From a virus, in the IMG/VR virus record IMGVR_UViG_3300036761_001467, positions 1-43,041 of that record: DNA of 43,041 bases; one strand, written 5' to 3'. The notes below the pieces were generated by a model that was not told where the DNA came from, ran no database searches, and worked only from the letters and a program-made list of their open reading frames with translations. Made by a program: the position numbers and the translations under genes. Shown here in pieces: positions 2,536-41,054 of this stretch. Position 1 is the first letter of the stretch; every line of letters begins with the position of its first letter.

Positions 2536-3413
2536 TCGTCCTCCAGTTCGCGGTAGAGCGCGCCGATCGCGCCGAAGGCGGAGTCGACGGCACGACCGGA
2601 GCGTTGCGCGTTGCCACCGCCGTTGCGGGAGAAACTGGCGGCGGCGCGCTTCACGTAGTTCGCGTTCGGGGCTTGGGCAGTGATCGCCGCACGAAGTCCG
2701 TAGCGCATGGCATCCGCGGAGACCGTGCCCTCGAGCTCGACGAGCGGCTCGTAGATCTGGCGTATGACGCGGGACAGTGCGGCGCGCCCGGTCTTGTTCT
2801 CCGCCGCCATGATCTCGGCCAGCTGGAGGAGGTCGCTGGGGAAGGCGGAGGCGGCGAGCAGCTCCTCGGCTCTCTGGGCCAACTTGTCGACCTTCGGAGC
2901 CTTCACTTTCGGGGGTGGGCCCGATTCTTCGGGCAAAGAGGGTTCTTGGTTCTCTTCGGTTGGGTTAGGTTCGGTTGGGTTAGGTTCGGTAGCTGAACAC
3001 GTGCGCGCACCGTGCTTCGCACGTGCATCGCACGTGTCTGAGGAACCTTGCTGCCGTGCCTCGCGCATGCGCTCACGGTTGCGTTCGCGTCGCTCCATGA
3101 ACTTGCCGGCGTAGTCGTGCCAGTCGTGGATGCGGCGCTGTTCGTCGACGAAGCCGGACTCGGTGAGCGCGTCGATCAGGACCTTCGGCGAGCCGTCGTA
3201 GCGACACGCCCTGGCGATCTGGCGGTCGGTGAAGTGCGACAGGTCGCCGTCCTGGGCGTAGTCCAGCGCCCACCACCAGAGCTCGTGCAGAAGCCCGATC
3301 GCGGCGTAGTCTGCGACGTCGTTCTGCACCGTTCCGGCGAAGAGAAGCTCGGCTAGGTGGTCCTTGCGGGGGTGGTCGCGAAGGGTCTGGTGCGACTCGA
3401 TCCAGGCGCTCAT
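2532..3413 (-). CDS. Phage replication initiator (replisome organiser type)
   Basis: This 293-aa protein begins MSAWIESHQTLRDHPRKDHLAELL and continues with HELWWWALDYAQDGDLSHFTDRQIARACRY. This is the winged-helix N-terminal domain (about residues 1-105) typical of actinobacterial phage/prophage replication initiators. A basic helix (KFMERRERNRERMREAR) and a flexible Pro/Glu/Asn linker (about 135-165) follow, then a helical C-terminal domain (about 175-293). The linker DNA holds iteron-like repeats (2955-3036), as in lambda O. The ATG start at 3413 overlaps the upstream stop as ATGA. With the downstream loader candidate it should recruit host helicase and polymerase. Confidence 0.8.
   Translation of the reverse strand: MSAWIESHQTLRDHPRKDHLAELLFAGTVQNDVADYAAIGLLHELWWWALDYAQDGDLSHFTDRQIARACRYDGSPKVLIDALTESGFVDEQRRIHDWHDYAGKFMERRERNRERMREARQQGSSDTCDARAKHGARTCSATEPNPTEPNPTEENQEPSLPEESGPPPKVKAPKVDKLAQRAEELLAASAFPSDLLQLAEIMAAENKTGRAALSRVIRQIYEPLVELEGTVSADAMRYGLRAAITAQAPNANYVKRAAASFSRNGGGNAQRSGRAVDSAFGAIGALYRELEDE
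2955..3036. other. Candidate replication origin (iterons inside the initiator gene)
   Basis: The 15-bp unit TTCGGTTGGGTTAGG is repeated at 2955-2969 and 2970-2984, with a partial third copy (TTCGGT) at 2985-2990. It is followed by three CACGTG palindromes at 2998-3003, 3020-3025 and 3031-3036, plus an imperfect CACCGTG at 3008-3014, spaced roughly one helical turn apart. This is locally the least GC-rich, most repetitive DNA in the gene. Lambdoid and other phages place the origin within the initiator gene; the assignment here is inference. Confidence 0.55.
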
Positions 3414-3793
3414 GTCCCCGCCCTCACGGCCAGCAGGCTGCCGACGTCATAGGTGACCGGGATACCCAGCCGCCCCGACTCCGTGATCTCGTCCGCGACG
3501 CCGCTACTGATGATGCCATCGCGGTGCTTGGTGGCGACCACGAACACGGCCGCGGGCCTCCCTTCCAGTAAGCGCAGCAGATCCATACTGCGGCGCTTGT
3601 ACTTCGAGTCCGCGAGCGGCACCGGGGACGCGAGCCCTTCCAACATGTCGCCGGCTGGGTTGATCGGACACATGCCCAGTTCGATGAACTGGCGGGCGTA
3701 GCGGCTCATCTCGGCGCAGCTAGCCAGGTAGTCACCGGGATAGCCCGTCATCGGACAGATGATGTAGACGTAGAAGGGGGCGGCGGGGGTCAT
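3410..3793 (-). CDS. DUF4406-like / nucleoside deoxyribosyltransferase-fold protein
   Basis: This 127-aa protein starts at ATG 3793 (ATGA overlap). It opens with a β-strand and ligand loop (YVYIICPMTGYP), then a helix and 'LGMCPINPAGD', a central MDLLRLLEGRPAAVFV strand, and SSGVADEITESGRLGIPV. This is the DUF4406 pattern within the nucleoside 2-deoxyribosyltransferase-like superfamily. The Glu in 'ADEITES' corresponds to the usual active-site acidic position. Its substrate is unknown; phage nucleotide salvage or NAD-type ligand processing are possibilities from the fold. Confidence 0.65.
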   Translation of the reverse strand: MTPAAPFYVYIICPMTGYPGDYLASCAEMSRYARQFIELGMCPINPAGDMLEGLASPVPLADSKYKRRSMDLLRLLEGRPAAVFVVATKHRDGIISSGVADEITESGRLGIPVTYDVGSLLAVRAGT

Positions 3794-4011
3794 GGCGTCA
3801 CCGCCGGGTCGTCGTAGAAGCCCAGAAACGGCATCTCGACCCGCCCACACTTCGAGCAGGCGGCGTTGCCGTCCGGCTTCTCGACGTAATCCTCTAGGCC
3901 GCTGACGAACACGTTCTCGTCGGGCGCCACAAACCGTCCACACTGAGGGCAGCGTCGGGAGAAGAGCATCCCGCCGGCGTAGCTCTGATATGGACTCTCG
4001 AAAGAGGTCAT
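3790..4011 (-). CDS. Small four-cysteine zinc-ribbon protein
   Basis: This 73-aa protein starts at ATG 4011, overlapping the helicase-methyltransferase stop as ATGA. CPQCG near residue 21 and CSKCG near residue 52 make a CxxC/CxxC zinc ribbon separated by about 30 residues. It has no other recognisable domain. Tight coupling to the large helicase-methyltransferase gene suggests an accessory or regulatory role in early DNA metabolism, which is inference. Confidence 0.65.
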   Translation of the reverse strand: MTSFESPYQSYAGGMLFSRRCPQCGRFVAPDENVFVSGLEDYVEKPDGNAACSKCGRVEMPFLGFYDDPAVTP

Positions 4012-6269
4012 GGCGTCACCGCCGAGAACAGCGAGCGATGGTCAAGTGTCGCCTCGGCGTGAGCCAGATTCCGGGAGGCGGTGCGCCAGTAGGATTCCTT
4101 CAACTCGATGCCGACGAAACGGCGCTCGAGCCGGACGGCCTCGTGGCCCTCGCTGCCGATTCCGGCGAACGGGCTGAAGACGACCTCGCCGGGTGCGCTC
4201 CAGAGCTTCACGATGCGCTCGATGACCGGCAGCTGTAGCGGGCAGATGTGGCGCTCGTCGGCGGATTCGCGGGCGACAGTGACGTTGAGCACGTCGGTCT
4301 CCGAGATCCCGTCTCCATCGGGGGACCAGTCCTGCGCGTACCAGACCGGACGCGCCCACCGTATCCACTCCTCCTGCGTGACCCAGCCGCTCGGGTTGCC
4401 GTACTTCTCCGAGACTCCGGCGCGGATGGGGCTCGCGTTGTCCCCGTCCTTGCGGAAGTGCAAGACCCAGTCCGGCAGCGCGACGTGCATCATCGACGAG
4501 TCCGTGGCCAGCGTCTTGAACAGAAGCCCACGGTCCTTGGTGCGGATGGCCTTCACTTGCGGGTTCTTGTCGATGGTGATCTCGCCGTAGTAGCGCCAGC
4601 CCGCGTCCTGCATCATCTCGATGGTGCGGCCCCTGAAGTCCTTGAGGCCCGCGAATCCGTCCGAGTTGATGTGGGCGACGTACTGCGTCAGGTGCACGAA
4701 CGCGGAGCGACCCGGCCGGGTGATGCGGAGAAGTTCCGGGGCCAGATAGCCGAAGTGCGCCATGAGGTCGTCGATGCCCTTCGCGTTGCCGATGTCGCGC
4801 ACGCTGTTCGAGTAGGTGTACATACCGGGGAACGGCGGACTGAAGACGGACAGGTCGACCGATTCGGTGTCGACCTTCTTCGTGACCTCGACGCAATCCC
4901 CGAGGTAGAGCGTCCACGCGCCGCCCTCGACGACGTCCTCGCGGTACTCGGCGTCCTGCCTGGTCGCGCGACCAGCGACGGCGTCGTGCGTGAACTTGAC
5001 GATCTGCGCCATCGTCTTGGTGGCCTCGCGCTCCTTCCGCTTGACGTTCTGCACTACGGCCCCCTCCGCGTCCGAGGTCACGACGTAGGCCGTGACGGGC
5101 TTGTCCTGCCCGAAGCGCCAGCAGCGGCGCAGGGCCTGGTAGAACTGCTCGTAGGAATCCGAGAGGCCGACAAACGCCATGTCGGAGCAGTGCTGCCAGT
5201 TCATCCCGAACCCGGCGATGGACGGCTTCGTCACAAGGACGCGCACGTTGCCGGCGGCGAAATCGAGCATGGCCTTGGCCTTGTGCTCGGGCGAGTCGGA
5301 GCCGCGCACCTCGACGGCGTCGGGGATGGCGTCGGCGAGGGCCTCGGACTCGGCGTTGAGGTCGCACCAGCAAAGGAAGGGGCGGTCAGTGCCGTTCGCC
5401 AGATCGGTCGCCGCCTGTACGCGGTTGCCGAGCGAGGCGCGGCGGGCTCGCCTGCGTTCCTGAATCCCGATGCGCTCGCTGGTGAAGAGGGCGTCAGGTG
5501 TGATGTTCTCGCCCTCGACCACGACCTCGCGGATGTCCAGTGCGGGCAACTCGAAACGACCGTCAGGGAATCCGAGGTCTGACGGCTTCCGCATGGCCAC
5601 GGACCATGTCGCCATCCAGCGGTAGAAGTCCTCGTGCGAGTGGCCCTTGAGCCGCCACCGCGTGGTCGTGCCGTCGGTCGTGAAGTAGAGCGCCTTGACC
5701 TCGCTCTCCGTCATCACGCCGAGATACTCCGCGTGGTTGCAGAGTTCGGCAGGGTCGTTCGGGGCGGGCGTCGCAGTGCAGGCCAGCCGAAACGGGATGC
5801 GCTCGGCGAAGGCGATGACCTCGGTGCGGGTCTTGCCGTCGTAACTCTTGAGGATGGATGACTCGTCGAGCACGATGCCAGCGAGCAGGTCGGGGGAGAA
5901 GTGGCGCAACATCTCGTAGTTCGTGATGTTCACGCCCAGCGTGACGTCTTCGCCCGTTCGGCAGACGTTCACGGGAACGGAGAACTTGTCGCCCTCGCGC
6001 GCGGTCTGCTCGGCTACTGCTAGCGGCGCGACGATGAGGACGATGCCGTCCCGCCGCTCGCATACCAGCCGCGCCCACTCCAACTGCATCGGTGTCTTGC
6101 CGAGACCGCAGTCGGCGAAGATGGCGGACCTACCCTTCTCGCAGGCCCAGGCCACGAGGGCGCGCTGGAAGTCGAACAGTTGCGGATTGATTGCGGACTC
6201 GGCGACCTTGAAGCCGTCGCCGTGATCCATCATGGCGCGGGCCTCGAGGAAGGCGGCGTAGTCGCTCAT
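4008..6269 (-). CDS. Snf2-type helicase fused to N-type DNA methyltransferase
   Basis: This 753-aa protein starts at ATG 6269 (ATGA overlap), preferred over a GTG 14 codons upstream. Residues about 25-430 are a superfamily 2, Snf2-like ATPase: Walker A DCGLGKT (about 54-59), DESS box (about 135-138), TATP (about 165-168) and a motif VI QALRRCWRFGQ (about 378-388). Residues about 440-753 are a class β amino-methyltransferase: catalytic SPPF (about 477-480) precedes the AdoMet motif FSPFAGIGS (about 698-706). No nuclease domain is present. It probably translocates on DNA and methylates adenine N6 or cytosine N4. Roles could be protection from host restriction or replication/recombination; the specificity cannot be read from sequence. 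Confidence 0.9.
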   Translation of the reverse strand: MSDYAAFLEARAMMDHGDGFKVAESAINPQLFDFQRALVAWACEKGRSAIFADCGLGKTPMQLEWARLVCERRDGIVLIVAPLAVAEQTAREGDKFSVPVNVCRTGEDVTLGVNITNYEMLRHFSPDLLAGIVLDESSILKSYDGKTRTEVIAFAERIPFRLACTATPAPNDPAELCNHAEYLGVMTESEVKALYFTTDGTTTRWRLKGHSHEDFYRWMATWSVAMRKPSDLGFPDGRFELPALDIREVVVEGENITPDALFTSERIGIQERRRARRASLGNRVQAATDLANGTDRPFLCWCDLNAESEALADAIPDAVEVRGSDSPEHKAKAMLDFAAGNVRVLVTKPSIAGFGMNWQHCSDMAFVGLSDSYEQFYQALRRCWRFGQDKPVTAYVVTSDAEGAVVQNVKRKEREATKTMAQIVKFTHDAVAGRATRQDAEYREDVVEGGAWTLYLGDCVEVTKKVDTESVDLSVFSPPFPGMYTYSNSVRDIGNAKGIDDLMAHFGYLAPELLRITRPGRSAFVHLTQYVAHINSDGFAGLKDFRGRTIEMMQDAGWRYYGEITIDKNPQVKAIRTKDRGLLFKTLATDSSMMHVALPDWVLHFRKDGDNASPIRAGVSEKYGNPSGWVTQEEWIRWARPVWYAQDWSPDGDGISETDVLNVTVARESADERHICPLQLPVIERIVKLWSAPGEVVFSPFAGIGSEGHEAVRLERRFVGIELKESYWRTASRNLAHAEATLDHRSLFSAVTP

Positions 6270-6589
6270 CCCGGCCCCCACGTGTCCGAGTACGCCCGCC
6301 GCGTCGGGCACTTGAGGTGCGGGTAGTCACGATTGAGCAGGCGCGCCAGGTCTGACGAGAGGTGGTCGTTCACGAGCACCGGCTCGTGGTCGCGTCTCGT
6401 CAGGCCGAGACGGCTCGCGAAGTGTGGCCGGCGCAGCAGGCACAGATAGAGCCGCGTCGACGGGGCGATGCCCTGCAGGCGGTCCTCATGAGCCCACGCG
6501 ACGATGACTCGCCAAGCCTGCGGGTTGCGGTATCGCCAGGCGAGGGCGTCAGTCAGAGGATCCACCGTGATGGTGAGCTGCTCGCTCAT
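6266..6589 (-). CDS. Hypothetical 107-aa early protein
   Basis: The ATG at 6589 is preceded by an in-frame GTG at 6592 immediately after the upstream TGA; either may be used. The N-terminus is β-rich (EQLTITVDPLTDAL), followed by helices (WRVIVAWAHEDRL, STRLYLCLLRRPHFASRLG) and a basic tail. The stop overlaps the helicase-methyltransferase start as ATGA. I do not recognise a family. It lies between the annealing-protein candidate and the helicase fusion. Confidence 0.6.
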   Translation of the reverse strand: MSEQLTITVDPLTDALAWRYRNPQAWRVIVAWAHEDRLQGIAPSTRLYLCLLRRPHFASRLGLTRRDHEPVLVNDHLSSDLARLLNRDYPHLKCPTRRAYSDTWGPG

Positions 6590-7790: not shown

Positions 7791-7984
7791 GCCGTCCGCC
7801 TGGCGTAGGCCGGGTGCGACCAGTCGGCGACGATCTGGCGCCCGGTCTCGAGGGTGACGAGGCAGTTGCGTCCCCAGCGTTCGATGCCGAGGATGCGCAC
7901 CGGCTCGCCGTGGAGCAGGTAGTAGACGTGGCGGCGGGTGTACTTCATCGCGCGCCGCAGGGTGATGCGCCGGTAGCCGTTCAC
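7787..7984 (-). CDS. Small basic β-rich hypothetical protein
   Basis: This 65-aa protein starts at GTG 7984 (GTGA overlap). It has a basic N-terminus (NGYRRITLRRAMKYTRRHVYYLL) followed by alternating β strands (VRILGIERWGRNCLVTLETGRQIVADW), consistent with a small barrel or SH3-like nucleic-acid-binding fold. It lies between an excisionase-like HTH gene and the 33-aa membrane peptide. I do not recognise a family. Confidence 0.55.
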   Translation of the reverse strand: MNGYRRITLRRAMKYTRRHVYYLLHGEPVRILGIERWGRNCLVTLETGRQIVADWSHPAYARRTA

Positions 7985-8256
7985 GGCCGTTCCTCTCTCG
8001 TCGGCCTGCTCTGCTCGGCCAGGAAGCGGACGACCTCCTCGGCGTAGAAGAGGAAGTCGCGCTTCGCGTAGGCGAGGCGCTGGAGCTGGCCCTCGTTGGC
8101 CAGCCGGCAGACCGCCTCGCGGCTGATGCGCAGGACGTCGCCGGCCTGGCCGGCGTCGAGGACGGTCGGCAGGTCGGCGAGGTTGGCGGGATGGATGCGG
8201 GTCTCGCGGCGAGTGCCCGGCGTGCGGCCGCTGCTCTTCGGGGGCCGGGCGCCCAT
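7981..8256 (-). CDS. Excisionase/MerR-like HTH protein
   Basis: This 91-aa protein starts at ATG 8256 with a TGATG junction to the upstream gene. After a basic N-terminal arm, residues about 30-80 form a MerR/excisionase-type winged helix: VLRISREAVCRLANEGQLQRLAYAKRDFLFYAEEVVRFL. This is the 'helix-turn-helix domain, excisionase family' layout, with the wing ahead of a final helix. It could be Xis for the integrase at 38895 or an early regulator. Its place near the start of the early operon suits either. Confidence 0.7.
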   Translation of the reverse strand: MGARPPKSSGRTPGTRRETRIHPANLADLPTVLDAGQAGDVLRISREAVCRLANEGQLQRLAYAKRDFLFYAEEVVRFLAEQSRPTREERP

Positions 8257-8561
8257 CAGAGGATGCCCTCGGCCCGGGCCGCGGCCATGAGCACGACGAG
8301 GAAGATCCCGCCGTAGAGGACCAGTCCGGGCAGTCCACTGACGAGCCCGGCGGCCAGGCCGGCGGCGGCGATCAGGACAAGGAAGCCGGCGAGCCCGGCG
8401 AAGGTGAGCGCGAAGCGTCCGAGAATGGACGCCGAACGCTTGCAGAGTCGTGTATGGTCCTGTATACCCTCACAGCGTGAGGCGGTTTCTCGCAAGGTTT
8501 CCGCTGATCCGAAGCGCCCTATCTCTTTGCCGGGAGGGGCGCTTCGTAGTCTTTGCGACAT
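8256..8561 (-). CDS. Small two-helix membrane protein, first gene of the early operon
   Basis: The 101-aa frame starts at ATG 8561 behind AAGGAG. The C-terminal half has two hydrophobic segments (LTFAGLAGFLVLIAAAGLAAGLV and LVLYGGIFLVVLMAAA). The first 45 residues are polar and basic and overlap a predicted rightward promoter and dyad, so the true start could lie further in, though no ATG/GTG is available there. It is the first frame downstream of the leftward promoter at 8643-8670. I do not recognise a family. Confidence 0.5.
   Translation of the reverse strand: MSQRLRSAPPGKEIGRFGSAETLRETASRCEGIQDHTRLCKRSASILGRFALTFAGLAGFLVLIAAAGLAAGLVSGLPGLVLYGGIFLVVLMAAARAEGIL
8440..8468 (+). promoter_or_regulatory. 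Predicted rightward σ70-type promoter
   Basis: The -35 TTGCAG (8440-8445), a 17-bp spacer and -10 TATACC (8463-8468) match consensus well in an otherwise GC-rich region. It would transcribe toward the plus-strand gene at 9002-9196, antisense to the HTH gene at 8667-8876, ending at the terminator at 9205-9238. Confidence 0.45.
8468..8482. promoter_or_regulatory. Operator-like dyad abutting the rightward promoter
   Basis: CCTCACAGCGTGAGG is a perfect 6-bp inverted repeat with a 3-bp centre. It begins at the last base of the predicted -10 box, so it covers the expected start site. That position suits a repressor site. Confidence 0.45.
8510..8546. other. Hairpin between the two converging promoters
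   Basis: CGAAGCGCCC (8510-8519) pairs with GGGCGCTTCG (8537-8546) around a 17-nt loop. It lies between the predicted leftward and rightward promoters and could act as an attenuator or protein site. There is no T-tract, so simple termination is less likely. Confidence 0.4.
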
Positions 8562-8642
8562 CGAAGCTCCTTATGTGTACTGGACGGGTGACGGTTTCTC
8601 GGCTGCTACCTCCTCTCGTTCACGGCGTTGCTGGTGGTCCGT

Positions 8643-8670
8643 AAGTTATCAGTTCTACTAACTGAGTCAA
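8643..8670 (-). promoter_or_regulatory. Leftward early promoter with a dyad in its spacer
   Basis: On the minus strand the -35 TTGACT (8670-8665) and -10 TAACTT (8648-8643) are 16 bp apart. Within that spacer CAGTT-CTACT-AACTG (8650-8664) forms a perfect 5-bp inverted repeat, the classic placement of an operator. The -35 overlaps the stop codon of the HTH gene. This should drive the early operon from 8561 leftward. Confidence 0.65.
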
Positions 8671-8876
8671 TACCCTTTGGCGCGCAAAGTCTCCACCAGT
8701 GCCTCAGCCTCTGACTCCGTGATGACCCACTGGCTGCCGACCTTCTGACCGAGCCTGCCGAGCAGGCAGAGGCGCTCGATAGAGGGGCGCGAGTAGCGCA
8801 CGCCGCGCTCCCGCACGAACTCGTGGGTCTGCGTGATGCTGAAGAGGCGGCAGGGTGTCTTCTTGCGCGGGGTCAT
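8667..8876 (-). CDS. Small HTH regulator (repressor or excisionase-like)
   Basis: This 69-aa protein starts at ATG 8876. It holds one MerR/excisionase-type HTH: RLFSITQTHEFVRERGVRYSRPSIERLCLLGRLGQKVGSQWVITESEAEALVETLR, with a recognition helix, a turn and a closing helix. It is the only gene between its own leaderless-type promoter and the early promoter, whose -35 overlaps its stop. That position suits the regulator of the early operon. No full-length CI-type repressor is visible elsewhere. Excisionase is the main alternative. Confidence 0.65.
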   Translation of the reverse strand: MTPRKKTPCRLFSITQTHEFVRERGVRYSRPSIERLCLLGRLGQKVGSQWVITESEAEALVETLRAKGY

Positions 8877-9001: not shown

Positions 9002-9196
9002 ATGGACGACGAGCAGAAGACCGAGCAGGAACCCGAGCAGAAGCCAGGCTGGGCCGAGCGCATGGTCTCTGCGGGCGAGGGGATGGAGAAGGCCGGCGGC
9101 TCGATGGAGAGCGCCGGCTGCAGCGCGATGACCTTCTTCGTGATGCTGGCGATCGTCGCCGTTCTCGGCTTGATGATCTGGGCCGTCAGTTGCTAG
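9002..9196 (+). CDS. Small membrane protein, plus-strand island in the control region
   Basis: This 64-aa protein starts at ATG 9002 behind a G-rich ribosome site (GGGGGGC). The N-terminal 40 residues are acidic and helical (EQKTEQEPEQKPGWAERM... EGMEKAGGSMESAGC). The C-terminus is one membrane helix (MTFFVMLAIVAVLGLMIWAV). Apart from the integrase it is the only plus-strand gene, and it has its own terminator. This expression pattern suits a gene used in the lysogen, such as superinfection exclusion, but no family assignment is possible. Similar small acidic-plus-membrane-helix proteins are common in prophages. Confidence 0.7.
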   Translation: MDDEQKTEQEPEQKPGWAERMVSAGEGMEKAGGSMESAGCSAMTFFVMLAIVAVLGLMIWAVSC

Positions 9197-9204
9197 GACA
9201 CGTG

Positions 9205-9238
9205 AGGCCCCGCCGCGTCCTCCACCGCGGCGGGGCCT
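9205..9238. terminator. Strong bidirectional terminator
   Basis: AGGCCCCGCCGCG (9205-9217) pairs perfectly with CGCGGCGGGGCCT (9226-9238) around an 8-nt loop. It lies between the convergent plus-strand gene ending at 9196 and the late minus-strand operon ending at 9284, so it can stop both. It separates late transcription from the control region. Confidence 0.85.
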
Positions 9239-9283
9239 CCTGGCCGCCTGGCAAGGGCGGCGAGCCGGGGACGCCGGCTATCC

Positions 9284-34572: not shown

Positions 34573-36176
34573 GGCACCATGTTGGCGACGGCGTCACCGG
34601 AGCGACGGCGGCCGCGCATCCTCGAGTCACCTCGGCGCCGCGGGGAGGCGGTGACGACGCGCGGCTCGGCCGCGGTGAGGGCTTCTGACTCGGCCAGGTA
34701 GGAGGCCATCACGCAGGCCACGGCAGCGTCGATCTTGAGGTCGTCCTGGACCTTGGTCAGGCGCCAGCCGTGCGGCGTCTCCTTGAGTCCGGCGTTGAGC
34801 ATTTGGTCGGTGAGCTCGGGATCGCCGCCGTGCCGGCCGCGGCCCTCCTTGAGCACGTCGAGGAGCATCATCGAGGCGGCGCTCATCTTGAAGTCGTTTT
34901 GGCGGAACTCCTCCACCGGCAGGCCGTACTCGTTCTGCAGGCGCAGCATGGAGCGCGTGAAGTAGTTCGGGTCGCAGGCCACGCGGCGGACGTTGAAGTC
35001 CTCGCAGAGCTCGACGATCTTGGCCTCGATCGGGTCGTGGTCGATGTAGCCCAGGGCTTCGTCCTTGCGCCACACCCAGGCGAGCCAGTTGTGCCAGCCG
35101 GCGGCGTCGACCTGATCGAAGACGACGGCGGTCGTGTCCCGGGTCCACGAGGCGTCGAGGCCGATGACGCTGGGCCGCTCGGTGTCGATGCGCGGACGCT
35201 CGGCGCAGGCGTGCCAGAGCTTCGCCGGGTAGGCACGGTTCGTGCCCTTGCTCGGGAAGCGGTTGAGGTGGTAACGCTCGAAGGCCGGGAAGGGCATCGA
35301 GTTGTAGGCGTCGAGCAGGTCGCGGTCGCTGACCCACGACTGCGGGTTGGCGGCGCGCCACACCGCCGGGTCGTGGCCGTCGGCGTCTTCGGCCGCCCCG
35401 ACCCAATAGACGTAGGCGCGCGGGTCCTGCGGGGCGCTCTTGAGCAGCTCCCACAGCGCACCCTTGCGCTCCTCGCCCGCGGTCGAGATCGTGATGAGGA
35501 GCGCGCCCGGCTGCCCGATCATGCCCGAGAGGATGGCGTAGCGCATCGAGTCGTCCTTGTGGACGTGGTACTCGTCGATGATCGCCACCTGGGCGTGGAT
35601 GCCCTGCGCGCCGCCGGCGTCGTAGGCGACCGTGTAGATGCGCTGGCCGGTCTCCTTGATGATGATCTCGTGGGTGCGCACGTCGCAGGCGGCGCGCAGC
35701 AGCGGGTCGGCGTAGACCATGCGGCGCATCTTGTTGAAGACGATCGCCGCCTGCTTGCGGTTGCGCGCCACGCAGACGTACTCGCCCTCGACGATGGGCT
35801 CGGTGAAGGCGATCGCCAGGAGCAGCGCCGCCGAGAGGTTCGACTTGCCGGAGTTGCGCGGCAGGCCGATGAGGGCCTCGCGGTACTTGCGGCGCCCGCC
35901 GCGGTCGACGCAGGCGAAGAGGGGCAGCAGGATGTTGTCGAGCTGCCAGGTCTCGAGGACGAACGGACGGCCGGCGAACTCGCGGTCGGGGTGCTTGAGG
36001 AAGCCGGCGAGGAAGGCTCCCACGAGGCGCGCGCGCTGCATGCCCTTGACCGTCGCCCGGTGACGGCCGGGAACGCTCGGCAACGGCCGCCTGGCCGCGC
36101 GCCGCCGCGGCTCGGCGCGCTTGGGCTTGGCCTTTCTGGCCGGTGGACGCTTTGGCGTAGTCTTGGCGGCGCTCAT
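34569..36176 (-). CDS. terL: Terminase large subunit (ATPase and nuclease)
   Basis: This 535-aa protein starts at ATG 36176 (ATGA overlap). A basic N-terminus is followed by the ATPase: Walker A GLPRNSGKSN (about 104-113) and Walker B IIDEYH (about 199-204), then motif III (LITISTAGEE). The RNase H-like nuclease contributes IGLDASWTRD (Asp about 341), CDPNYF and KIDAAVAC. It is of the HK97/Terminase_1 class. It pumps DNA through the portal and cuts concatemers. Confidence 0.95.
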   Translation of the reverse strand: MSAAKTTPKRPPARKAKPKRAEPRRRAARRPLPSVPGRHRATVKGMQRARLVGAFLAGFLKHPDREFAGRPFVLETWQLDNILLPLFACVDRGGRRKYREALIGLPRNSGKSNLSAALLLAIAFTEPIVEGEYVCVARNRKQAAIVFNKMRRMVYADPLLRAACDVRTHEIIIKETGQRIYTVAYDAGGAQGIHAQVAIIDEYHVHKDDSMRYAILSGMIGQPGALLITISTAGEERKGALWELLKSAPQDPRAYVYWVGAAEDADGHDPAVWRAANPQSWVSDRDLLDAYNSMPFPAFERYHLNRFPSKGTNRAYPAKLWHACAERPRIDTERPSVIGLDASWTRDTTAVVFDQVDAAGWHNWLAWVWRKDEALGYIDHDPIEAKIVELCEDFNVRRVACDPNYFTRSMLRLQNEYGLPVEEFRQNDFKMSAASMMLLDVLKEGRGRHGGDPELTDQMLNAGLKETPHGWRLTKVQDDLKIDAAVACVMASYLAESEALTAAEPRVVTASPRRRGDSRMRGRRRSGDAVANMVP

Positions 36177-36661
36177 TCGAGCAGTTCGCGCAGGCGCTTC
36201 TGGACCTCGAGCACCATGCTGCCGGCGGCGGCTTCCATGAGGTTGCCGCGGATCCGCGCCAGCGGGTTGAGGCCGAGCACGTCGGAGAGCTGGCGCATGG
36301 TCGTCGCGGCGTCCTTCTGGACCTTGAGCAGAGGGTTGGTCACGGCGCCGTTACTGCCCTTCACAAGGACGCCTTTCTCGGTCACGATGCGCGATGCCTC
36401 GGCGTGCACCTGGGCGGCCTGACAGAAGGCGAGCACGAGCGGCAGGTCGACCTCGCGCAGGGTGCGCAGGGCGGCCATGTCGCCGAGGATCACGCGCCAG
36501 GTATCGGCGGCCACGGGGCCGATGTCCGGCGGCGGCGCGCGCAGGGCGATCGCCTTGGGCACCGGCACGAGCTCGACGGGCGCCGCCTCGCCGGTCTGGG
36601 CGCGGTGGCCGGAGCTGTGACTGCGCCCGCGCGCCGGGTCCCGCGGCCGGCCCTTAGCCAC
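36173..36661 (-). CDS. terS: Terminase small subunit (P27 family)
   Basis: This 162-aa protein starts at GTG 36661, overlapping the PLD-like gene by 8 bases. The N-terminus (AKGRPRDPARGRSHSSGH) and the helical body (IGPVAADTWRVILGDMAALRTLREVDLPLVLAFCQAAQVHAEASRIVTEKGVLVKGSNGAVTNPLLKV) match phage P27 small terminase. It recognises packaging sites and loads the large subunit. Its stop overlaps the large subunit start as ATGA. Confidence 0.9.
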   Translation of the reverse strand: MAKGRPRDPARGRSHSSGHRAQTGEAAPVELVPVPKAIALRAPPPDIGPVAADTWRVILGDMAALRTLREVDLPLVLAFCQAAQVHAEASRIVTEKGVLVKGSNGAVTNPLLKVQKDAATTMRQLSDVLGLNPLARIRGNLMEAAAGSMVLEVQKRLRELLE

Positions 36662-37334
36662 GCTTCCCCGGCTTGAGCTCGTAGGGCTGCCAGTCGGGGA
36701 AGCTCTTGTCGAAGCTGATGATGGCGTCGTAGAGCTTCTTGTAGAAGCGGGCCAGGCCGGCGTCGACCGTGACGGTGGTGTTCTCGCATCTGGGGTTCGT
36801 GTTCACGTTGGCGCTCGACTCGATGACCACGTCAAAGGAGCGCCCGAAGCCGAGCATCACCTTGGAGTGGTTGCGGAAGATGGCGGCCCGGCCGCCGCAG
36901 GAGGCGGCGAGCTCGGCGAGCATGAGCCACTCTTCCGAGTAGGACGCCTGGAATATCTCGCCGACGTAGAAGTCGGCCCGCGTGATGAGGCCGCGGCCGA
37001 TCCACTCGCCGAGCTCGAGCACGTCGGCTTTGGCCATGCACCAGGTCGAGAGCACGACGTACTGGAGCGGCTCTTGCCGGAGCACGTGGCGCAGGTAGCT
37101 CAGTGAGTCGACGTCGCCGAACGAGACGCAGTGGTACGCCTCGCCGCGGCTGAAGTGCCAGTCGAGCGCGCGCTCGAGCGCGGCCTCGGACTTGAGTCGG
37201 CGCAGGCGATGGCGATCGGTCGTCTTGTAGACCTGCACGCCGCGCTCCTCGGCCGGCTCGATCTCCGGTGTCGGAGCGTCGAAGAGGTCGTTGAGGTCGG
37301 GCAGGTCGTCACCGAGTCCGGCCAGGGCGCCCAT
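36654..37334 (-). CDS. PLD-like domain protein upstream of terminase
   Basis: This 226-aa protein starts at ATG 37334 (TGATG junction). It carries one phospholipase-D-like half-site: AAIFRNHSKVMLGFG (HxK) followed by a conserved ESSANVNTNPRCENTTV, as in phage-associated PLD-like proteins found beside terminases. The rest is α/β (LQYVVLSTWCMAKADVLELGEWIG). Such proteins may be nucleases or simply structural relatives. Position next to packaging genes suggests a role in DNA processing. Confidence 0.75.
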   Translation of the reverse strand: MGALAGLGDDLPDLNDLFDAPTPEIEPAEERGVQVYKTTDRHRLRRLKSEAALERALDWHFSRGEAYHCVSFGDVDSLSYLRHVLRQEPLQYVVLSTWCMAKADVLELGEWIGRGLITRADFYVGEIFQASYSEEWLMLAELAASCGGRAAIFRNHSKVMLGFGRSFDVVIESSANVNTNPRCENTTVTVDAGLARFYKKLYDAIISFDKSFPDWQPYELKPGKRG

Positions 37335-38894: not shown

Positions 38895-40256
38895 ATGAAG
38901 GGGGAACTGACTGGCCGGGTCCGGCCCGTCCTCGAAGACGGCCGCGCAGTCCGGGGCAAGTACCAGCTCGTCGTCAACCTGCCGTCCCTGCCCGTGCTGG
39001 ACGATCTCGGCAAGGCGGTTCTCGACGAGCAGGGCGAACCGCGGCGCCGCTACCCTGAGACGACGAAGCTCGTCAGCGCCTCGGGCGTGAAGGATTCGCA
39101 GCGTCAGCTGCAAGCGTGGGTCGCCGAGCTCGAGGCGCACAACTGCGTCGACCCCGAGCGCCTCACAGTGGCCGGCCTGGCGGCTCTCTACCTGGCGGCC
39201 GCCAAGGAGGAGCTGCGCGCCGTCAGCTGCGATACCTACGCGCGAAACCTGCGCCTCCACATCCTGCCGGCGCTCGGCGAGATGCTGGCGCGCGACCTGC
39301 GCCGTCACCACCTGTCACGCTACTACACGGACAAGCGCGCGACCCTCGCCGAGACCACGGTCTACCATCACGCCACGGCGATCAGCGCGATGTTCACCTG
39401 GGGCGAGGGTGAGGGCTACGTCGGGCAGAACCCGGCCCGGCGCGTGAAGAAGAGTTCGAAGCCGCGCCTCGTCGTGCGGCCGCGGCGCAGGGTATGGGAG
39501 ATGAGTGAGATCGTCGAGACCGTGATCGCAGCGCGCAAGACGCAGCTGCACCTGGCCGTGCTGCTGGCCGGCCTCGCCGGCCTGCGCGCAGGCGAGATCT
39601 GCGCCTTGCGGCGCGCCGACCTCGAGCTGGACCGCGGGTACTGCCGCGTCATCCACACCGTCGAGGAGACGGGCAGCTCGGCGGGCAGCGACCGTCGCCT
39701 CGTCGAGTACCCGCCGAAGGGCGGACCCGGCGTCGTGCCGCTGCCACGCTTCGCCTGCGACGAGCTCCGCAAGGCGTTCGCCGCCCAGGACGAGATGCGC
39801 CTCGCGCGGCCGGGCTGGAACCGCGAGGGCTGGGTCCTGCCCAAGGTCGACGGCGCACAGATGTGGCCCTCCACGCTCAAGGGCCAGTGGGCGCGCTGGC
39901 TCGCCGGGCACCGCCGGCGCCTGCGCAAGCGCCTCGAAGAGGATCTCGGCCGCGAGCTGCACGACGTCGAGCTCCTGCCGCGCCTCTCACTCCACGGCCT
40001 GCGCGACTCCTACGGCTCGGACGTCTTCAAGCACGAGGGCCTGAAGGCGGCTCAGGAGCGTCTACGCCACAAGGACCCCGTGGTCACGCTGCGGCACTAC
40101 GTCGAGGTCTCGGACCTCGACGAGCTCGCCGGCCTGGCCCGCATGGAGCAGGACGTGATGGCCGCCGTGTCGGCTGCCGAGGCCAGTTCGCCGGGAGATT
40201 CCCGAATCATTCCCGAGAACGTCGTCCGACTCGCTGGACGGTCGGCGAAGAAGTAG
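38895..40256 (+). CDS. int: Tyrosine recombinase integrase
   Basis: This 453-aa protein starts at ATG 38895. It has an arm-binding N-terminal domain (about 1-75), a SAM-like core-binding domain (about 90-185) and a catalytic domain with Arg231 (LRAGE), Lys275 (PPKGG), His367-x-x-Arg370 (HGLR), His392 (LRHKD) and Tyr402 (LRHYVEV). All catalytic residues are present. attP overlaps its 3' end and follows it. It integrates the phage at a tRNA-Arg gene. Confidence 0.95.
   Translation: MKGELTGRVRPVLEDGRAVRGKYQLVVNLPSLPVLDDLGKAVLDEQGEPRRRYPETTKLVSASGVKDSQRQLQAWVAELEAHNCVDPERLTVAGLAALYLAAAKEELRAVSCDTYARNLRLHILPALGEMLARDLRRHHLSRYYTDKRATLAETTVYHHATAISAMFTWGEGEGYVGQNPARRVKKSSKPRLVVRPRRRVWEMSEIVETVIAARKTQLHLAVLLAGLAGLRAGEICALRRADLELDRGYCRVIHTVEETGSSAGSDRRLVEYPPKGGPGVVPLPRFACDELRKAFAAQDEMRLARPGWNREGWVLPKVDGAQMWPSTLKGQWARWLAGHRRRLRKRLEEDLGRELHDVELLPRLSLHGLRDSYGSDVFKHEGLKAAQERLRHKDPVVTLRHYVEVSDLDELAGLARMEQDVMAAVSAAEASSPGDSRIIPENVVRLAGRSAKK
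40196..40216. promoter_or_regulatory. P-arm integrase-binding repeat
   Basis: Within the last codons of int, ATTCCCGA occurs at 40198-40205 and 40209-40216 with an 11-bp spacing. The block AGATTCCCGAATCATTCC matches the right arm copy in 17 of 18 bases. It fits an arm-type site. Confidence 0.65.
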
Positions 40257-40274: not shown

Positions 40275-40317
40275 GCCCCCGTAGCTCAGTGGATAGAGCA
40301 CAGGTTTCCTAAACCTG
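40275..40317 (+). other. attP core: 5' half of tRNA-Arg(CCT)
   Basis: Bases 40275-40317 match tRNA positions 1-43: acceptor 5' strand GCCCCCG, D-arm GCTC...GAGC and a full anticodon arm CAGGT-TTCCTAA-ACCTG with anticodon CCT (Arg). No T-arm or acceptor 3' strand follows, so it is not a complete tRNA. The 5-bp inverted repeats around a 7-nt loop fit the strand-exchange region of a tyrosine recombinase. Confidence 0.85.
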
Positions 40318-40417
40318 TGGCCTCCTCTGACGTGGGGCCTTTCTTCCCTGCTAATCGTCCACTTTCCGCCGGACCTGCTGCCCGCAACTGTCGTGCCTGA
40401 GCGTGGAGTCGGCTGCA

Positions 40418-40448: not shown

Positions 40449-41054
40449 CTAAGCGGCGCCTACGCCGGGGTTCGTTTTCGGCAGATAGCCCTTGAGCCGG
40501 CACTGCTGTATCAGCTTCGCCGCCTGGTCGGGCCGGAGCCCCAACGCCTCGGCCGTGTCGCGGCCCGGCGATCTACTCCCGGCCTTCCAGAGCTCGCGGT
40601 ATACCGTGGCGACGCACTGGTAGTCGTTGGTCGTGTAGCGGGGACGCTGGCGCGGCTTGCCGCGTGTAGTCTCCAGCCTCGCCGGTTCCAGCTCAGGCAC
40701 GCGGCCGCCCATCCGGCGCGCCAAGTCCTCGAGCATCTCGTCGCTTCTGCGGGTGACTCCCTCGTCGCCCAGCGCGCGTGCCAGCAGCGCGGCGAAGGGG
40801 AAGCGAAGGTGCGCGGCGCGCAGCGGTCGCTCGCGGAGTCTCGCGAACGGGTAGGGGTGCGGCCTGATATCGAGGCCCACGCACTCCGGCCTGCCGGCGA
40901 TCCGCTTCACGTGGAACGACAGACTCCACTCCGAACCGTCCGGGGCCCCCCAGATCGTCCCCGCCTCGTAAGGTTCGCCGCTCTCCGCCAGCACGGCCTG
41001 GCGTGACGTCGCGTCCTCCGGCGTGCCGCTCATTGGCTGTCCTGGCGTCTTCAT
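40449..41054 (-). CDS. Actinobacterial-type HTH protein, last gene of the early operon
   Basis: This 201-aa protein starts at ATG 41054 (ATGA overlap); a second ATG eight codons in is possible. The C-terminal 55 residues are an HTH (DYQCVATVYRELWKAGSRSPGRDTAEALGLRPDQAAKLIQQCRLKGYLP), a form common in actinobacterial mobile elements. The N-terminal half is mixed β (TIWGAPDGSEWSLSFHVKRIAGRPECVGLDIRP) with a helical segment (RFPFAALLARALGDEGV). It ends beside attP. A regulatory or integration-accessory role is inferred. Confidence 0.7.
   Translation of the reverse strand: MKTPGQPMSGTPEDATSRQAVLAESGEPYEAGTIWGAPDGSEWSLSFHVKRIAGRPECVGLDIRPHPYPFARLRERPLRAAHLRFPFAALLARALGDEGVTRRSDEMLEDLARRMGGRVPELEPARLETTRGKPRQRPRYTTNDYQCVATVYRELWKAGSRSPGRDTAEALGLRPDQAAKLIQQCRLKGYLPKTNPGVGAA

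Follow-up and report, generated by a model that had tools for sequence, protein, structure and literature searches.

Results

Genes and features of the early control region

We wanted to describe a putative early control region in the window, which here means the whole stretch of DNA analyzed, a virus record of 43,041 bases. Two further records, L103, found by a scan with the replication gene, and L124, found by a scan with the TM101 pair, were used for comparison, which thus comprised three sequences, two of them close. The genes and features at the locus are as follows.

9002-9196, + strand: divergent gene for a 64-aa membrane protein, with coding-like codon use; membrane protein/lipoprotein genes lie there in L103 and L124
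8886-8916, − strand: P1, candidate promoter, TTGACC-N19-TAGGAT
8667-8876, − strand: HTH69, 69-aa candidate regulator with a MerR/Xis-like winged-helix model, HTH_17-like; positional counterparts in L103 and L124
8643-8670, − strand: P2, very likely the early leftward promoter, TTGACT-N16-TAACTT with an extended −10; its place is matched in L103 and L124
8649-8665, no strand assigned: dyad 1, 17 bp, possible operator, fills the P2 spacer
8609-8618, − strand: leader motif CGAGAGGAGG, SD-like but not followed by a start codon; GAGGAGG is also present in L103 and L124
8256-8561, − strand: TM101, 101-aa membrane protein, putative first early gene, with the SD AAGGAG at 8567-8572; homologues in L103 and L124
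8510-8546, + strand: conserved hairpin at +15 of TM101, which folds better on the + (antisense) strand
8547-8554, + strand: U-rich tail TAGTCTTT, terminator-like, after the hairpin
8475-8577, + strand: rod-forming stretch
8468-8482, no strand assigned: dyad 2, CCTCACAGCGTGAGG, inside TM101
8440-8468, + strand: rightward promoter of the original prediction, weak; at best it would drive a short antisense RNA
7981-8256, − strand: HTH91, 91 aa, excisionase-like HTH_17 protein, putative next early gene (HTH_17, E 0.0016; phrog_4691 excisionase, E 8e-4)

The record ends in an exact repeat of 1,975 bp, which leaves 41,066 bp of unique sequence; its GC content is 68.7%, and nearly all of its genes run leftward. 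A tyrosine integrase is encoded at 38895-40256 (+ strand), and, as read from the sequence, the 5′ portion of a tRNA gene (anticodon CCT) lies beside it at ∼40278-40321. This arrangement makes a temperate lifestyle very probable, and the phage has both the integrase and the attP expected of temperate phages. The apparent attP core is the tRNA 5′ part just after the integrase gene (40278-40321); the near-repeats ATTCCCGAATCATTCCCGA (from ∼40200) and ATTCCCGAATGATTCCTGA (from ∼40420), which lie on either side of it, may represent arm sites for the integrase. Relatives of the terminase, portal, and capsid occur in three IMG/VR contigs, but the early region has almost none; the terminase of one related phage, G002, is 69% identical to that of the window phage. 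DNA searches with the control region gave no useful match, no viral relatives of HTH91 or of a 303-aa protein were found, and 80 helicase loci that we compared had little in common besides the helicase. We note that the protein encoded at 4008-6311 in the window joins an SNF2-like helicase to an N6/N4 DNA methyltransferase; proteins of mycobacteriophages and other phages match it at 46-49% identity, and one in another locus, L110, at 84%. Further, the divergent membrane gene and the late genes, which run leftward, have between them a perfect 14-bp GC stem (9204-9239), probably a two-way terminator without a U tract.

Leftward promoters

The original prediction had placed a leftward promoter at 8670-8643, and our analysis bears this out. 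P2 consists of TTGACT (8670-8665), a 16-bp spacer, and TAACTT (8648-8643) with the extended −10 TGATAACTT, and its −35 element overlaps the HTH69 stop codon. When both strands of the 41 kb were searched for TTGACN-N16-18-TANNNT, two sites were found against 0.26 ± 0.48 expected, P2 being the sole minus-strand site and well above chance. Widening the spacer to N15-19 added a single further minus-strand site genome-wide, P1 (8916-8886), which lies directly upstream of HTH69; the HTH69 ATG follows the P1 −10 element by 10 nt and has no SD, and a P1 transcript would be a leaderless HTH69 mRNA. The promoters with support in the sequence are thus a leftward tandem pair (8916-8886 and 8670-8643).

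Counterparts of P2 are present at the matching place in L103 (TTGACA-N17-TAGTCT) and L124 (TTGACA-N17-TAGAGT), and each overlaps the end of the HTH gene, with the stop codon in the −35 element in the window and L103 versus the −10 element in L124. The distance of GAGGAGG from the start of the −35 element is 55, 57, and 57 nt in the window, L103, and L124, respectively, and no site other than these three, across the window and 1.6 Mb of loci, combines TTGACN-N15-19-TANNNT with GAGGAGG. The conserved leader element GAGAGGAGG (window 8609-8618, L103 ∼4198-4208, L124 ∼2813-2823) appears to be an orphan SD-like sequence. The three phages, all with an integrase in their records, have in common the order divergent membrane/lipoprotein gene, small HTH gene (70-72 aa in L103 and L124), promoter, GAGGAGG leader, and 101-aa membrane gene. 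P2 is very probably real, and, because this promoter, leader, and gene layout is common to L103 and L124, it is very likely the early promoter of the phage. Overall, the comparison supports the view that this is an early-transcription control region of a kind common to at least three uncultured phages. The divergent slot holds an envelope-type gene in each of the three phages, and these genes are unrelated to one another, a pattern that lysogenic-conversion genes would be expected to show; the one in L124 (1972-2457, − strand) is lipoprotein-like and points away from the HTH gene.

The membrane gene downstream of P2

The TM101 homologues are exactly 101 aa long and are 51% (L103) and 47% (L124) identical to TM101. 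Codon use had raised the possibility that 8430-8561 is non-coding, which we dropped given these full-length homologues; a search for TM101 in 396 genomes (the phylum of an Aeromicrobium genome) gave weak matches that appear to be chance hydrophobic similarity. The GC content at third codon positions is low in the first 46 codons of the gene in all three phages (0.54-0.67 versus 0.91-0.95), which fits either an extra constraint or a relaxed protein constraint, and the codons common to L103 and L124 show no significant excess conservation in the N-terminal part (p 0.53). Because the comparison of homologues places the TM101 start at 8561, the rightward site, dyad 2, and the hairpin all lie within a coding gene.

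HTH69 as a candidate regulator

The small HTH proteins that the original prediction had noted near the control region are indeed encoded there, at 8667-8876 (69 aa) and 7981-8256 (91 aa), both on the − strand. HTH69 scores 15.7 bits (E 0.018) against HTH_17 (PF12728), below the Pfam cut-off of 27; its L124 counterpart passes with 36.2 bits, and its L103 counterpart, at 21.8 bits, does not. The structure model of HTH69 (pLDDT 82) has RacA, BldC, MtaN, BmrR, and the Xis of mycobacteriophage Pukovnik as its best PDB neighbors in Foldseek, all with E > 0.05, and a TM score of 0.5-0.65 to RacA, BldC, MtaN, and Xis. The counterparts are alike in position, size, and HTH_17 character at 23-28% identity, and the L103 protein is too diverged for BLASTP to align it with HTH69; from their position the L103 and L124 HTH genes are putative orthologues of HTH69. 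A search for HTH69 relatives in viral contigs, phage records, and genome contigs found only one weak, unrelated HTH.

The prediction that a CI-type repressor is absent also agrees with our searches: no HTH_3 (PF01381) protein was detected in the window record, in a search with positive controls, and none scored above the cut-off in the window, L103, or L124, so the HTH_3 repressor of a lambda-type CI/Cro system was not found. These observations support HTH69 as the natural candidate regulator, and its position suggests that it would repress P2. A 201-aa ORF at 40449-41054 (− strand), which adjoins attP, has no Pfam match and a C terminus that is HTH-like by eye, is a possible alternative regulator.

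Dyads near the promoter sites

Dyads with arms of at least 6 bp number two in the 281-bp region, compared with 0.53 ± 1.01 expected. Dyad 1 (TCAGTT-AGTAG-AACTGA) taken alone has a chance p of ∼0.06, and dyad 2 is at chance level and unrelated to it. No second full copy of either dyad was found, and a common operator for both was rejected, as the sequences differ and have no half-site in common. The core of dyad 1, CAGTTN5AACTG, has one further copy, at 3677-3691 in a gene, and none in 1.64 Mb of other loci, a recurrence that is suggestive only. This copy is part of a second 17-bp dyad, CCAGTTCGATGAACTGG (3676-3692, inside the gene at 3410-3943), which is absent from L110, the locus with the 84% identical helicase, and may serve as a secondary binding site or be due to chance. 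Dyad 1 is not kept at the orthologous promoters: L103 has no dyad there, and L124 has a different one with 7-bp arms. Because the P2 spacer dyad is not conserved, the comparison identifies no operator; operators may well diverge together with their proteins.

A conserved hairpin inside the membrane gene

A hairpin with a 10-bp stem had been predicted between the two promoter sites, and the stem at 8510-8546 is well above chance (z −4.9 on the + strand and −4.1 on the − strand). We found a hairpin in three of three phages, at +15, +17, and +17 nt from the first base of the membrane-gene start codon in the window, L103, and L124, respectively, although the stem sequence of the window differs from that of the other two; here we compared the three by position, as three-way MAFFT alignments of leader and hairpin misplaced the anchors. 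In L103 and L124, z is −3.4 and −4.4 on the antisense strand versus −2.4 and −3.2 on the sense strand, and the sense-strand fold is weaker by 3.5 to 5 kcal/mol in each of the three phages. Between the L103 and L124 stems, we note one double compensatory change (G-C to C-G) and another change that gives a mismatch on the mRNA strand and a G-U pair on the antisense strand. U-rich tails follow the hairpin on the antisense side only (window TAGTCTTT, L103 GCTCTTTG, L124 GCCTTTTG). In a scan of the genome for T-tailed hairpins, the window hairpin ranks second; the top one (36663-36702, + strand) lies at a gene boundary in a leftward operon (36173-36661, 36654-37334).

Upstream of the hairpin on the antisense strand, 45 nt before it, L103 and L124 have a 14-nt invariant block (antisense TACGATGCGCGGAC) that reads as an extended −10, TGNTACGAT, amid otherwise variable sequence. 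At the equivalent place, the window has TATGGT/TATACC, the rightward −10 of the original prediction; a good −35 for an antisense promoter is present in none of the three phages. We conclude that the hairpin resembles the terminator of a short antisense RNA. The antisense-favored fold, the one-sided U-tails, and the extended −10 common to L103 and L124 together suggest an antisense transcription unit of ∼80 nt inside the first early gene. The antisense strand is favored, yet structure is above chance on the sense strand too, so the hairpin may act on either. The RNA of the + strand at 8475-8577 folds into a 41-pair rod with 10 G-U pairs, and none of 1500 shuffles was as stable; a genome-wide scan ranks the rod only about eighth among the peaks, which makes it suggestive rather than strong evidence for an RNA, and the case is instead built on the conserved hairpin. 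An Rfam search gave no credible match.

The rightward site

The motifs of the original prediction are all present where it had placed them, and those of the rightward promoter are TTGCAG (8440-8445), a 17-bp spacer, and TATACC (8463-8468), with a further −10-like TATGGT at 8453-8458 (+ strand). This site matches at 7 of 12 positions, as do ∼420 equally good sites, and its −10 lacks the T at −7. No rightward gene follows before 9002. Because the conserved hairpin carries a U-tract, a rightward transcript, if it exists, would be expected to be a short antisense RNA that ends before P2 rather than elongating through it.

Discussion

From the positions, statistics, conservation, and folds described above, we infer a control region in which P2 would fire the leftward early operon, comprising the membrane protein, the Xis-like HTH91, the helicase-methylase, and the replication genes. 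HTH69, expressed from its own upstream promoter, would bind at or near P2 and limit it, and would most likely take the place of a CI protein as the regulator of lysogeny or early shutoff. The hairpin with its U-tail, read rightward, would end an antisense RNA of ∼80 nt that starts near 8465-8475 and pairs with the 5′ coding part of the membrane-gene mRNA, and this terminator would also shield P2 from opposing transcription. As a joint explanation, a P2 early operon, limitation of P2 by HTH69, and an antisense RNA ended by the hairpin account best for the observations, and we give the combination a probability of about 0.5.

The original prediction went further and suggested a possible lysogeny switch, which would be bistable, made of two promoters that face each other, have a dyad (as operator) apiece, and work by transcriptional interference under HTH69. 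Its CI-less half, with a small HTH regulator, is plausible in a temperate phage without HTH_3, and a rightward −10-like site is present in all three phages. The converging half found no support: the rightward site is at background level, drives no gene before 9002, and lies inside the conserved leftward TM101; the dyads are near chance, mutually unlike, and not conserved at the orthologous promoters; and a terminator-like hairpin stands between the two promoters. We therefore regard such a switch as very unlikely. Whether the hairpin might instead act in the mRNA is a separate matter. A plain early promoter followed by a sense-strand hairpin that controls membrane-gene translation, or serves as a nut/put-like or attenuation element, with no antisense RNA, would account for a spacing to the start codon that is fixed across the three phages and for a sense-strand fold above chance; it is, however, at odds with the weaker folding of that strand in each phage, with an inner helix and one outer pair that hold on the antisense strand only, and with the one-sided U-tail, and we think it unlikely.

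The part assigned to HTH69 has its own alternative, namely that HTH69 is an excisionase-like or early auxiliary protein and that immunity is provided by another protein (e.g. the 201-aa protein of 40449-41054) or by host factors. Both HTH69 and HTH91 resemble Xis-type HTH_17 proteins, and the 201-aa ORF beside the integrase is without a Pfam match, but HTH69 has its own promoter and stays beside P2 in three phages; this alternative is possible, if somewhat doubtful. Returning to the preferred reading, with HTH69 limiting P2 and the hairpin ending an antisense RNA, we note several known systems with which it can be compared.

In the face-to-face early switches of phages P2 (C/Cox) and 186 (CI/Apl), each convergent promoter drives a gene. 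The window resembles them in its small regulators without a lambda-type CI, its Xis-like regulator near the early promoter, and its opposing promoter-like sites, but its rightward site drives no gene and sits inside the first early gene, and two active convergent promoters driving regulator or early genes were not found. Such a switch also has two proteins that act against each other's promoters; the HTH proteins encoded near the window's early promoter are HTH69 and HTH91. With Xis, Cox, Vis, and BldC (HTH_17/MerR-like), HTH69 has in common a predicted β-α-α-β-β-α winged helix of ∼65-70 residues, although it falls under the Pfam cut-off and has no close sequence relative. G002, with capsid genes related to those of the window phage, has a CI/integrase module (L007 91-1560) in which the integrase is neighbored by a 95-aa protein that matches HTH_3 weakly, whereas the window phage has no such protein and a different early module. 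Short antisense RNAs located in an opposite-strand gene, such as the sar RNA in ant of phage P22 and the lambda-type oop RNA, act in the choice between lysis and lysogeny (PMC13397905). The ∼80-nt RNA predicted in the window is likewise embedded in an opposite-strand gene, and of the promoter and intrinsic terminator that such a unit has opposite a gene, the window offers a weak promoter and a conserved terminator-like hairpin. It differs from sar and oop in being a prediction only, in covering the 5′ coding part rather than the ribosome site, and in having an uncharacterized membrane protein as its target.

The comparison supports a conserved CI-less early cassette with a small HTH protein, and the new element is the conserved hairpin, which folds better on the antisense strand. 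The wider proposal of an actinophage-like temperate family with CI-less early control by a 70-aa MerR-like protein and a conserved self-terminating antisense RNA in the first early gene is, in our estimate, rather unlikely to hold in full. How lysogeny is maintained in temperate phages without a recognizable repressor is often unexplained, and this locus offers a compact conserved candidate, which consists of a 210-bp gene, a single promoter, and a 45-nt hairpin, in three genomes. Should the antisense RNA prove false, the comparison would still place the early promoter, together with a likely regulator, and remove the idea of converging promoters; should it prove true, early control would gain a further layer, made of RNA, in a group of phages for which metagenome contigs are the only source.
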